Source of the DNA: Nitrosarchaeum sp.
GTDB taxonomy: Archaea > Thermoproteota > Nitrososphaeria > Nitrososphaerales > Nitrosopumilaceae
Assembly: GCA_021414365.1 (NCBI GenBank)
Contig: JAIOOR010000008.1
Span: forward strand, 62,001 to 126,000
DNA length: 64,000 nt
Direction: 5' to 3'
The stretch's first letter is position 1. Each line of letters begins with the position of its first letter. The translations under genes were made by a program, and so were the position numbers. A model generated the notes under the pieces. The model worked only from the letters and a program-made list of their open reading frames with translations. It had not been told where the DNA came from and made no database searches. Positions 6,695-11,072 of this stretch are shown in pieces.

Positions 6695-7351
6695 TTACAC
6701 TTTTGTGTAATGCAAAACAAGGTAATTTTCAAGTTTTTTTATTGTAATTAATCTGAGTCGTGGGGATTTTATGATTTTATCATAGCCTTTTCCTTGAACA
6801 AATGTTATTGCATCTGTACCTCCAATAATAAATGGAGTTATAGTTATCAAAATTTCATCAAACAAATTATTTTGTATAAATTCCCAGTTTATAGCACCAC
6901 CACCCTCAACAAGAATTGTTTTAATTTTTCTTTTACCTAGATTATTCAACAAAGATTTTATGTTAACTGAATTTTTACCAGTCATTATAATTTCGACTGG
7001 AAATTTTTTTAATTTTTTTAAATTGTGATTACTAATTTTTTTAGAAACTACGATAATAGTTGGTACTTTGTTACATGTTCGTAAAATTTTTGAATTAACA
7101 GGTATTGTTCCTTGAGAATCTAAAATAATTCTTATAGGATTTTTCCCCTTTGTGTATCGTACAGTAAGTAGTGGATCATCTCTATGTACTGTATTTTTTC
7201 CTACTAGTATTGCATCAACCTTTGAACGAAGTTTATGAAGTCTGATTCTATCTTTTTTAGATGATAGTTTTGAATCACCTAAACGAGTGGCAATTTTTCC
7301 ATCTATAGAAATTGCAGCACTTAGAATTACATGTGGTCTAGATTTTTCCAT
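6695..7351 (-). CDS. arfC: 2,5-diamino-6-ribosylamino-pyrimidinone 5'-phosphate reductase (ArfC/RibD2 type)
   Basis: A 218-aa RibD C-terminal (DHFR-like fold) reductase. It has SIDGKIATRLGDS, the cofactor/substrate segment VDAILVGKNTVHRDDPLLTV, and LVEGGGAINWEF near residue 145. In archaea it reduces the ribosyl side chain of the riboflavin intermediate to ribityl before deamination. There is no N-terminal deaminase domain, unlike bacterial RibD, so a separate deaminase is needed. Its ATG lies inside the end of the upstream amidohydrolase gene (14-bp overlap), which puts it last in the riboflavin operon. Confidence 0.9.
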   Translation of the reverse strand: MEKSRPHVILSAAISIDGKIATRLGDSKLSSKKDRIRLHKLRSKVDAILVGKNTVHRDDPLLTVRYTKGKNPIRIILDSQGTIPVNSKILRTCNKVPTIIVVSKKISNHNLKKLKKFPVEIIMTGKNSVNIKSLLNNLGKRKIKTILVEGGGAINWEFIQNNLFDEILITITPFIIGGTDAITFVQGKGYDKIIKSPRLRLITIKKLENYLVLHYTKV

Positions 7352-8528
7352 GTATTATTTTACCTCCAATCATTACAGCTCTAATGGCAGATTCAGATGC
7401 TCTATGTACAATAGATGCATGAGGATTATGCATTGGTTCTAAATCCAATGCATGTTTGTCTACGAAAATACAATCTGCAAATTTATCATTTTCAATTACT
7501 CCAATATCTTTATTCAGAATTTTTCCACCGTTTACAGTTGCCATTTTTAAAATTTCTTTTGGATTGATTCTTTTCTTGTGAATTCCCATAGTTACTTTCC
7601 ATAAGTAATCCATTTCTCTAAACATGTCTGGAGAATTAATCATCACATTATCAGTTCCTAATGCAATTGTGCATCCAGCTTTTTTCATTAATTCAATATC
7701 AGGAATTCCTTCAGCAAGGGATGCATTTGCTCTAGGACATATTACAATGCCATTAGATATTTTCCTAGCAGTAATCAGATCTTTTGATGAAGCATAAGTC
7801 ATATGCACGAGAAAATGAGGTTTCATATTCAATGCACGTATTGTTTCAGATTTTCCTGTAATTTTTTTTGATAAAGAAACACTTTGAATTGTCTCAGATG
7901 AATGAATTGCTCGAATTTTATCTGTTTTAGAGTAATATTTCAATACGGGTGAGCTGTTTTCATTGGCTCCACTCACGCCAATTCCATCACAATTAGTTAG
8001 TAATTCAGCAAGCTCATCCATTTTATGTTTTGGTAAAGGAATATTTTTTTTAATTTCAAGTGGCTTTTGATAAAATTCTAATCTTCCAAGAATAATTGAA
8101 CGAAGAGGTAATTTGGATATAGCTTGTTTAAGCAATATCACTCCATCAATTCCACCTTCCCTAAAATCTACAAAAGTTGTAATTCCATTATTTAACATAG
8201 ATTGACAAGAATTTTTCATGAAATTTGCAAGGTGATTTTTATTTGTATTTTTTAGAATTTTTGATTTTATACCAGATACGGGATGAATTCGTTTTTCAGC
8301 TGAACTATTCAAAATAACATCTTTTGCAATAGAATCACCTACGTGAGTATGACAATTTACAAATCCTGGAATTAATAATAATCCCTCACAATCTAATGAT
8401 TCGTCTTTTTCAGTAGTCTGAATATTTGGTTGGATTTGTTTGAATTTTTGATCATGAATCTTTATGCTGGTTTTTGAAACATAATCTAGTTCTTTACCTA
8501 ATAGAACACTTATGTTTTTGATTAGCAT
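7338..8528 (-). CDS. metal-dependent amidohydrolase/aminohydrolase within the riboflavin operon
   Basis: A 396-aa member of the cytosine deaminase/SsnA/TrzN branch of the amidohydrolase superfamily. The metal and catalytic motifs are complete: GFVNCHTHVGD (HxH), IHSSETIQS (HxxE), HMTYAS (His) and IALGTDNVMINS (Asp). These enzymes usually remove ammonia from an aromatic ring. The gene overlaps GTP cyclohydrolase III by 7 bp and the reductase ArfC by 14 bp, so it is translated with the riboflavin enzymes. That position suggests it deaminates the 2-amino group of the ribitylamino-pyrimidinone 5'-phosphate, a step with no assigned archaeal enzyme that I know of. By sequence alone it could instead be a guanine, cytosine or methylthioadenosine deaminase. 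Confidence 0.85.
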   Translation of the reverse strand: MLIKNISVLLGKELDYVSKTSIKIHDQKFKQIQPNIQTTEKDESLDCEGLLLIPGFVNCHTHVGDSIAKDVILNSSAEKRIHPVSGIKSKILKNTNKNHLANFMKNSCQSMLNNGITTFVDFREGGIDGVILLKQAISKLPLRSIILGRLEFYQKPLEIKKNIPLPKHKMDELAELLTNCDGIGVSGANENSSPVLKYYSKTDKIRAIHSSETIQSVSLSKKITGKSETIRALNMKPHFLVHMTYASSKDLITARKISNGIVICPRANASLAEGIPDIELMKKAGCTIALGTDNVMINSPDMFREMDYLWKVTMGIHKKRINPKEILKMATVNGGKILNKDIGVIENDKFADCIFVDKHALDLEPMHNPHASIVHRASESAIRAVMIGGKIIHGKI

Positions 8529-9274
8529 GGTAATTCATAAACATGAGATTTTTCTTTACCAGAATCTCGGATTTCTCGTATAGTATCAAGAGATTTAGTT
8601 GCAAGATTTACAGCCTCTCGCGAAGTTTTTGCATTACCTATTCCACAATTCAAAGTAATGTTATCTTCCTTTTCAATTAATTTTATAAAATCTTTTACAG
8701 AATCTTTTGCTTGTTCACTTGCAACGACCATAAAATTATCTCCACCCATAAAAAATGTAAGAGAGTCTTTTTTTAGAAAAAATTTTGTCATTTTTGCATA
8801 TAGTTCAAAAATAGTCACAGTAATTTCATATGGTGAATTTATTTTTCTTCTAGAAGTGAGATTATCCACATCAAAATGCATTATTGAAACTTTTTGTTCA
8901 GATTTGTCATCAACAAAACCAAAAATAATATGTTCTTTACTTAGAAAAACTTCATTAATTTTTCCTTCATATGCTTTAAGATTTGCTTCAAATGGAGAAT
9001 CCGCATATCCTATTGATATTGATAATCTAACATCAAAAGATTTTTGAAGATTTTTTTGAATTTCAATATGATCTTCTAACGTTAATCCATTAGAAACTAC
9101 AAAAAATTCATCTGCTCTATTTAAGAAAACAAGACAATTTTTTTCAGAGAATAATTTTTGGACTTCTTTGTATAATGTTGCTTGAAGCATTTGAAGTGCG
9201 TGTTCTCTGTCGCTACCTAAGGTTAAAGTCCAAGGCCCATATCCAATTATTTTTAATATGCTAAGTTGAATCAT
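8522..9274 (-). CDS. arfA: GTP cyclohydrolase III (ArfA)
   Basis: A 250-aa enzyme built of two related ferredoxin-like, cyclase-type halves. GYGPWTLTLGSDREHALQML near the N-terminus is the family signature; LNRADEFFVVSNG and FFMGGDNFMVVASE are equivalent strands in the two halves, and HFDVDNLTSRR gives a metal-binding Asp. GTP cyclohydrolase III opens GTP to the formylamino-pyrimidine phosphate that starts archaeal riboflavin and F420 synthesis. It overlaps ribH by 4 bp upstream and the amidohydrolase by 7 bp downstream. The formamide hydrolase ArfB is not seen in the window. Confidence 0.92.
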   Translation of the reverse strand: MIQLSILKIIGYGPWTLTLGSDREHALQMLQATLYKEVQKLFSEKNCLVFLNRADEFFVVSNGLTLEDHIEIQKNLQKSFDVRLSISIGYADSPFEANLKAYEGKINEVFLSKEHIIFGFVDDKSEQKVSIMHFDVDNLTSRRKINSPYEITVTIFELYAKMTKFFLKKDSLTFFMGGDNFMVVASEQAKDSVKDFIKLIEKEDNITLNCGIGNAKTSREAVNLATKSLDTIREIRDSGKEKSHVYELPC

Positions 9275-9687
9275 TTTTGAATCCTTTGCAGTTCATCAAA
9301 GATTTTTACAACTGCTTCAACTGCACGCTCTGCTACAGGTCGAATTCTAGCATATGCATGTCTTTCTTGCATTCCAGGTCCAGTAATTCCTAAAGATACA
9401 GGTTTTTTGTATTTAATTGATAAAGCAGTTAATGCATTTACGGCAGAATGAGCAATCAATTCATCATGTTTTGTTTGTCCTTTAATTATAGCACCAAGAG
9501 TAACTACTCCATCAATGTCTTTTTTTTGTAATAATGAATCAACTATGATCGGCATATCATATGCTCCTGGAACTTTACATGTATAGATTATTTTTAATTT
9601 CATAATTTTTGCTTTTTCTTCAGCTACTAATAGCATTCTAGATGTCACTTCTTCATTAAATTCTGAAATCACTATTGCAATATTCAG
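9271..9687 (-). CDS. ribH: 6,7-dimethyl-8-ribityllumazine synthase
   Basis: Lumazine synthase joins the pyrimidine and dihydroxybutanone phosphate halves. VVTLGAIIKGQTKHDELIAH has the phosphate-binding and catalytic His region, and KPVSLGITGPG is also conserved. A start at GTG 9672 would remove part of the first beta strand. The in-frame codons just upstream read NIAIVISEFN, matching the family N-terminus (for example IVxxEFN in methanogen RibH). The only start candidate there is CTG at 9687, eight bases after AGGTG; this gives 138 aa, a normal family length. It overlaps the end of ribB by 0-few bases (ribB stops at 9690) and overlaps arfA by 4 bp. Confidence 0.9.
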   Translation of the reverse strand: MNIAIVISEFNEEVTSRMLLVAEEKAKIMKLKIIYTCKVPGAYDMPIIVDSLLQKKDIDGVVTLGAIIKGQTKHDELIAHSAVNALTALSIKYKKPVSLGITGPGMQERHAYARIRPVAERAVEAVVKIFDELQRIQK

Positions 9688-9689
9688 AA

Positions 9690-10355
9690 TTAATGCACCT
9701 TCGCGAATTCTAATAATTCTTTACCATCAATTAACGGAATTGCATTTTGTTTTGCATATTTTTCTGCTTTATCTATAGATAGTGCATTATAGGTTTCAGC
9801 ATCCATCATTTCACAAATTGCAGTGACTGGAGTTAAACCTGCAATTTGAGTGAGATAGACAGACATTTCAGTATGACCTTGTCTTTTTGCAAGTAGTCCT
9901 TGTGATGCAATTAATAATGGAACATGACCAGGAGTTTTAAAAGAAGAAGCAAATTTTTTCTTTTTGTTCTCAACACTAAAAATATTTGCCATTTCTCTAA
10001 TAGTCAAGGATCTGTCTTTATCAGTTATACCAGTATAAGTTTGATAGTGATTAACAGAAATTGAAAATGTTGGATGATCACCGTATGGAGCAAGTCCCAT
10101 GATCATTTCTTTGTTTGAAATTGGTGATTCGGCTAAAATTTCATGCATGTATTTTAATTCTAAAGAATTTGCAAAATTATGATCAATTGCAATACATAAT
10201 AGACCTCCAGCATGTTGACGCATTCTTGCAACATGTTCAGGAGTTACAAATTCTGCAGCAACCACCATATCTATTTCATTTTCTCTTCCTGCAGAATCAA
10301 ATAATAATACGAATTCACCACGTTTTAGTGATTCAATTCCAGATTCTAGAGACAT
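9690..10355 (-). CDS. ribB: 3,4-dihydroxy-2-butanone 4-phosphate synthase
   Basis: The 221-aa enzyme converts ribulose 5-phosphate to the four-carbon unit of riboflavin. The acidic metal-binding loop RENEIDMVVAAEF, the MRQHAGGLLCIAI segment, TDKDRSLTIREM and the GHVPLLIAS/GHTEMSVYLTQIAGL motifs are all present, so it should be active. It is the single-domain form, without a GTP cyclohydrolase II domain; in this organism GTP cyclohydrolase III takes that role. A TATA box lies 27 bp upstream of the ATG, so it likely heads the main riboflavin transcript. Confidence 0.95.
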   Translation of the reverse strand: MSLESGIESLKRGEFVLLFDSAGRENEIDMVVAAEFVTPEHVARMRQHAGGLLCIAIDHNFANSLELKYMHEILAESPISNKEMIMGLAPYGDHPTFSISVNHYQTYTGITDKDRSLTIREMANIFSVENKKKKFASSFKTPGHVPLLIASQGLLAKRQGHTEMSVYLTQIAGLTPVTAICEMMDAETYNALSIDKAEKYAKQNAIPLIDGKELLEFAKVH

Positions 10356-10377: not shown

Positions 10378-10411
10378 GATTATAAAGTTTACTATAAAAT
10401 TGGTAATTACC
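10378..10411 (-). promoter_or_regulatory. ribB promoter with upstream palindrome
   Basis: On the minus strand CTTTATAATC (10378-10387) lies about 27 bp before the ribB ATG and is a good TATA box. Just upstream is the perfect 10-bp palindrome GGTAATTACC (10402-10411), which could be an operator. No FMN riboswitch fold is seen. Confidence 0.45.
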
Positions 10412-10434
10412 ATAAAAGTAGTAGAACGTTAATT

Positions 10435-11019
10435 TTATTTTAAGATATATTTTCCTAGAATATCAGTTTCGATGTTTAGCTTATCACCGACATTTTTTGT
10501 TTTAAAATTAGTTATCTCCATTGTATGAGGAATTAAACAGACAGAAGCAATATTATTTTTAACATCCACGACTGTCAAACTGATTCCATCAACTGCAATT
10601 GAGCCCTTTTTTACAACATATTTTGATAAATTTTTTGGAATTTCAAACCAAACTTGTACTTCTTTAGGTTTGTTTTGTATCTTTTTAATTATACCAACTC
10701 CATCGATGTGGCCTAAAACAAAATGTCCTTCTAATCGTTCACCGGTTTTTAGACTGCGCTCTATGTTAACAATGTCACCAGGTTTTAGATTTCCTAAATC
10801 AGTTTTACTAGTAGTTTCATCTATCATTTCAAAAATACAACTAGATTTGAATAGTTTTGTAGCAGTAAGGCAAACTCCATTCAAAGCTACACTTTGTCCA
10901 ATCTTCAAACCTTTTGCATGTTTTCCTAGATTTACAGTCATTTGAATGGCACTCCGGTTTTTAGTATTTTTTGAAATTTTCTCGACTTTTCCAATACCCT
11001 CAACTATTCCAGTAAACAT
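10435..11019 (-). CDS. ribE: riboflavin synthase alpha chain (lumazine-protein type)
   Basis: A 194-aa protein from the second of two adjacent ATGs, giving the family start MFTGIVEGIGKV. It has two lumazine-binding barrels: the first with VALNGVCLTATKL, the second with IAVDGISLTVVDV, each followed by the expected MEITNF/MIDETT-type stretch. It dismutates two lumazines to riboflavin. This trimeric type is typical of bacteria and eukaryotes; many other archaea use an unrelated RibC-type enzyme, so the gene may have come by transfer. It lies upstream of ribB on the same strand, 79 bp away. Confidence 0.93.
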   Translation of the reverse strand: MFTGIVEGIGKVEKISKNTKNRSAIQMTVNLGKHAKGLKIGQSVALNGVCLTATKLFKSSCIFEMIDETTSKTDLGNLKPGDIVNIERSLKTGERLEGHFVLGHIDGVGIIKKIQNKPKEVQVWFEIPKNLSKYVVKKGSIAVDGISLTVVDVKNNIASVCLIPHTMEITNFKTKNVGDKLNIETDILGKYILK

Positions 11020-11072
11020 CATTTATTGTAAAAATTTCTTTGTATAAATTGATTTTCTTATGATAATAAATT

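Follow-up and report, generated by a model that had tools for sequence, protein, structure and literature searches.

A candidate for the archaeal riboflavin deaminase

The amidohydrolase gene located between arfA and arfC in the riboflavin operon of a Nitrosarchaeum strain very likely encodes the deaminase that is missing from archaeal riboflavin synthesis, as judged from sequence comparisons and a structural model, and the enzyme would act on 2,5-diamino-6-ribitylamino-4(3H)-pyrimidinone 5'-phosphate. The assignment is drawn from two points taken together: deamination is the step left over in the pathway, and deamination is what the amidohydrolase fold does. This role had been proposed from the DNA letters alone (the sequence-only reading), and it is now supported by linkage to riboflavin genes, by the presence of the gene wherever arfA is found and by the lack of a RibD-type deaminase in the genome. 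The deamination step of riboflavin and F420-precursor synthesis thus has a specific candidate gene, with conserved residues, genomic partners and an assay.

The window is a stretch of 64,000 nucleotides from a genome of 1.88 Mb that is 99.9% complete and has Nitrosopumilus as its closest named relatives. The features concerned are the following:

6695-7351, minus strand: arfC, archaeal-type pyrimidine reductase (ORF and family match; RibD_C/TIGR01508, 1.7e-61)
7338-8528, minus strand: amidohydrolase of the PRK07213/NF005552 family, proposed 2,5-diamino-6-ribitylamino-4(3H)-pyrimidinone 5'-phosphate deaminase (ORF, family and model)
8522-9274, minus strand: arfA, GTP cyclohydrolase III (ORF and family match; GCH_III, PF05165, 4.4e-50)
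9271-9672, minus strand: ribH, lumazine synthase (ORF and family match)
9690-10355, minus strand: ribB (ORF and family match)
10401-10412, no strand assigned: 12-bp palindrome TGGTAATTACCA, with a TATA-like TTTATAA closely downstream, ahead of ribB
10435-11022, minus strand: ribE, two-domain riboflavin synthase (ORF and family match)

The genes run along the minus strand in the order ribE-ribB-ribH-arfA-amidohydrolase-arfC. The amidohydrolase ORF has an ATG start and encodes 396 aa; it overlaps arfA by 7 bp (8522-8528, ATGCTAA) and arfC by 14 bp (7338-7351), and ribH overlaps arfA by 4 bp. The sequence-only reading had described the overlaps with arfA and arfC, and the coordinates agree with it. 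The three genes that it had placed in the cluster, ribE, ribB and ribH, were all identified by family matches, and the reductase was indeed found to be without a RibD deaminase domain, the arfC product being a protein of 218 aa for which the family search returned no such match. Operon membership alone does not name the step.

Within the source genome, enzymes are assigned to GTP opening (ArfA), to reduction (ArfC), to the RibB, RibH and RibE steps and to the kinase step, which leaves deformylation (with a PF02633 candidate), deamination and dephosphorylation. Neither a RibA-type cyclohydrolase nor a RibD-type deaminase was found in this genome. The N-terminal domain of RibD and fungal Rib2 catalyze the same reaction as the one proposed here, but with the unrelated cytidine-deaminase (CDA) fold. 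A single CDA-fold protein is present in the source genome, and it was rejected as a rival deaminase because it is ComEB/dCMP-deaminase-like. Since no CDA-fold match was obtained in seven genomes carrying the amidohydrolase clade, nor in the M. jannaschii and S. acidocaldarius controls, and the sole copy in the source genome is of the dCMP-deaminase type, a CDA-fold deaminase is not the general answer.

Protein family, active site and predicted structure

By sequence and by model, the protein belongs to the amidohydrolase superfamily and, within it, to the ATZ/TRZ (COG0402) aminohydrolases. Family searches matched it to Amidohydro_1 (PF01979, E 1.8e-39) and otherwise to PF07969 only; no match was found to PF00383, the cytidine-deaminase fold, or to PF02633, the creatininase fold of ArfB, the latter result bearing on fold rather than on ArfB-like activity. 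Among named families the strongest match is to NF005552/PRK07213, 'chlorohydrolase', which covers nearly the full length and scores 323 bits (cut-off 294). That name asserts no riboflavin role, and the distant members f18, f3, f15, f21 and f9 of the riboflavin-linked group score under the cut-off. NF005552 matches were also obtained in the M. jannaschii, H. volcanii, S. acidocaldarius and M. acetivorans controls, with the cut-off exceeded in 2 of 14 controls.

All of the deaminase motifs reported earlier are present: H60xH62, H209xxE212, H242 and D293 are invariant in an alignment of 31 diverse homologues and align with the solved enzymes. D65, K88, E124, N268 and N294 are also invariant in these homologues and R266 is near-invariant, and D65, K88, E124, R266 and N294 are not kept in other archaeal COG0402 proteins. 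In several distant copies, including that of f21, R149 is not retained.

The AF2 model (mean pLDDT 94.2) consists of a TIM-barrel and a small beta domain. Its top PDB matches all fall within the ATZ/TRZ (COG0402) group, the closest solved structures being adenosine/MTA deaminases, the isocytosine deaminase Vcz, guanine deaminases, AtzA and TrzN. Vcz (PDB 8is4, 7ww2) shares the fold with a TM-score of up to 0.88 (8is4), and both Vcz and the guanine deaminases carry out the same type of reaction, in which an oxo group replaces the C2 amine of a 4-oxopyrimidine. Because the riboflavin intermediate has isocytosine as its ring, conversion of a 2-amino-4-oxopyrimidine to the 2,4-dioxo form would be ordinary chemistry for the amidohydrolase fold. 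However, Vcz and the guanine deaminases are 15-18% identical to the amidohydrolase and act on free bases, whereas the proposed substrate is a ribityl phosphate, and the archaeal clade has conserved D65, K88, E124 and N294 of its own.

The shared superfamily and fold would also be expected of a salvage deaminase for guanine, cytosine, S-adenosylhomocysteine, methylthioadenosine or 5'-deoxyadenosine that shares the operon but not the pathway, and the protein is the sole COG0402 match in the source genome. The MTA/SAH and 5'-deoxyadenosine deaminases (PRK08393, PRK06038, DadD) have the COG0402 metal site and catalytic residues in common with it, but it scores at most 116 bits against these models, whose cut-offs all exceed 500 (522 to 779), and far under the cut-off of the guanine deaminase model. 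In the tree, which contains 74 proteins, a branch measuring 1.76 substitutions per site (support 100) separates the amidohydrolase from 13 further archaeal members of COG0402, and the riboflavin-linked rows cluster, with 6 label changes against 22 expected and none of 500 shuffles as low. Genomes G113, G065, G083 and G043 contain both a clade member and another COG0402 protein, so the linked protein serves a separate function. With strict co-occurrence and repeated linkage to riboflavin genes also standing against it, a salvage function is the most improbable of the alternatives weighed here.

Proposed reaction

As a deaminase, the enzyme would hold a mononuclear divalent metal, Zn or Fe, through H60, H62, H209 and D293, and a metal-activated water would attack C2 of the pyrimidinone ring, helped by E212, H242 and D293. 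The 2-amino group of the ArfC product would leave as ammonia to give 5-amino-6-ribitylaminouracil 5'-phosphate, from which a phosphatase would then free the substrate of both RibH and the F420 enzyme CofH. The invariant D65, K88, E124, N268 and N294, together with the near-invariant R266, may recognize the ring along with its phosphorylated side chain.

The operon data are silent on the order of reduction and deamination, and ArfC and the amidohydrolase are encoded by neighbouring genes. The enzyme could in principle deaminate 2,5-diamino-6-ribosylamino-4(3H)-pyrimidinone 5'-phosphate before ArfC acts, as occurs in bacteria, or accept both compounds. This appears very unlikely given that, in the literature, reduction precedes deamination in archaea, an order based on archaea other than the source organism (PMC13028884, PMC3403918).

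Co-occurrence with arfA and linkage to riboflavin and F420 genes

Some of the sequences in the clade profile came from the same 151-genome phylum sample that was searched with it; the profile detected members at 269 bits or more in 61 of these genomes, with other COG0402 proteins reaching at most 180 bits. A clade member is present in 58 of the 59 genomes with arfA, and in all 59 if one counts the full-length diverged copy in G071, which retains D65, K88, E124, N268 and N294. Among the 92 genomes without arfA, just 3 contain a member, and all three have arfC. The 61 clade-bearing genomes span 12 family-level groups, and Fisher p-values calculated on the co-occurrence ignore shared ancestry. 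In G018, G103 and the Helarchaeota genome L101 the amidohydrolase and arfC are found, yet neither arfA nor RibA was detected; replacement of ArfA by RibA in archaeal genomes without arfA was considered and rejected, as none was found. A second arfA-like gene (G066:C9:5396-6088) was seen in one genome of the family.

The contiguous arrangement arfA-amidohydrolase-arfC is found in 24 of 24 sampled genomes of the strain's own family. A scan of GTDB genomes yielded the named loci, the best 80 of which, mostly from Nitrososphaerota, were retained, and riboflavin genes adjoin the amidohydrolase at 74 of these 80; the linked loci include Bathyarchaeota and two Asgard MAGs, Candidatus Jordarchaeum and a member of the Helarchaeota. 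The arrangements vary. The order in f18 is ribB-ribH-arfA-amidohydrolase with arfC elsewhere, the gene is paired with arfC in f27 and f31, it overlaps ribH in f15 and it is divergent from ribB in f3. Linkage to riboflavin or FO genes was observed in nine family groups of the sample, in Asgard genomes and with cofG/cofH. Adjacencies that are varied and repeated between lineages point to function rather than to frozen synteny or one inherited block. Conservation beside arfA and arfC, put forward earlier as a check on the proposed role, therefore reaches far beyond Nitrososphaerota, but it is not universal: the riboflavin-making lineages f9, f11 and f21, as well as G131, possess the gene unlinked to riboflavin genes. 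These unlinked members nevertheless fall on the riboflavin-linked side of the tree.

In one Bathyarchaeota MAG (L073, 2337-5930) the amidohydrolase gene overlaps cofG and cofH comes next, forming an FO-synthesis operon that includes the proposed deaminase. CofH acts on 5-amino-6-ribitylaminouracil, which is what the proposed deamination would yield after dephosphorylation. A euryarchaeal copy (L086/L157, G151:C142) is split by an in-frame TGA, with arfA elsewhere in the genome; sequencing error, pseudogene and recoding are candidate readings of this interruption.

The amidohydrolase gene directly follows arfA in the source operon, and its distribution follows that of arfA more closely than that of arfC, as might be expected if the protein were instead the formamide hydrolase (ArfB function) acting on the ArfA product, with some other protein as the deaminase. 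Amidohydrolase-superfamily enzymes are able to cleave amides, and the ArfB candidate of the source genome is weak, at 38.9 bits against the NCBIfam ArfB cut-off of 180. However, a creatininase-family (PF02633) gene is present in 60 of the 61 clade genomes and adjoins arfA in G073 and G017, and in G073 the two candidates are separated, the creatininase gene lying beside arfA and the amidohydrolase on a different contig, together with arfC. The pairing of the amidohydrolase with arfC where arfA was not detected (Helarchaeota, G018, G103) and the ring-amine deaminases being the best structural relatives of the model likewise argue for the deaminase, and the formamide hydrolase reading is highly improbable. 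The creatininase-family protein of the source genome is only distantly related. Since its ArfB score is weak and the tree does not fix its position, we infer the filling of the deformylase slot; from its sequence, this protein may be ArfB. Elsewhere (L190:1171-1914, G000:C25) a creatininase-family gene overlaps a PurU-like gene with formyl-transferase and ACT domains; its product, of a kind annotated elsewhere as creatinine amidohydrolase, is a candidate for ArfB or for another formyl-related function.

A small bacterial branch (L103, L114, L122 and L146, from Acidimicrobiia and other MAGs) is located on the same side of the tree as the riboflavin-linked proteins. Its neighbours are hydantoinase, CN-hydrolase, luciferase-like monooxygenase, MmgE/PrpD or transporter genes (e.g. 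L122:310-12060). No arfA was found in these four genomes, and two bacterial-branch genomes contain RibA at full strength. The branch is probably a catabolic ring deaminase. Its occurrence in catabolic neighbourhoods without arfA indicates that clade membership, or homology alone, does not fix the substrate. We consider it probable that an amidohydrolase-fold enzyme is the general archaeal deaminase for riboflavin and F420, from Asgard to Nitrososphaeria and Thermoproteia, such that the step would have been invented twice (the other time as RibD/Rib2) and the bacterial branch would have become catabolic later.

Relation to earlier predictions

MJ0699, which we take to be a COG0402 amidohydrolase, and HVO_2483 probably come from the same family as the amidohydrolase described here, and the M. 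jannaschii and H. volcanii controls both have NF005552 matches; orthology is putative. According to a 2021 account of haloarchaeal riboflavin synthesis, three gaps remain, with candidates for two of them, one named arfB, and the remaining gap being the phosphatase EC 3.1.3.104 (PMC8305020). In Table 6 of that source, HVO_2483 and MJ0699 are credited to Rodionova et al. 2017 as predictions and are kept separate from both the arfB candidate and the gap at the phosphatase. Once these two are set aside, HVO_2483 and MJ0699 are left, by elimination, as candidates for the deaminase, the same gap in the pathway. The sequence-only reading had taken the deaminase to be unassigned in archaea. Predictions do exist, so this is too broad; no experimental assignment was found in the literature searched, most subscription papers lying outside that search. 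With earlier candidates for the step, the present result is best regarded as strong support rather than first discovery. A review from 2026 goes no further than to call the remaining steps conserved (PMC13028884).

A survey of sponge Thaumarchaeota (PMC7848895) interpreted COG0402 as a cytosine deaminase and PF02633 as a creatinine amidohydrolase taking part in the use of creatinine. Because the sole COG0402 match in the source genome is the riboflavin-operon gene, and PF02633 is a possible ArfB, the inference of creatinine use needs rechecking.

Regulation

The TGGTAATTACCA palindrome recurs, little changed, upstream of ribB across Nitrososphaeria. The source genome contains a two-domain RbkR-like riboflavin kinase, whose gene adjoins that of a RibL-type nucleotidyltransferase (the RibL reading was made by eye). 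The palindrome may be an RbkR operator, in which case the amidohydrolase would be under the same control as ribB, ribH, arfA and arfC.
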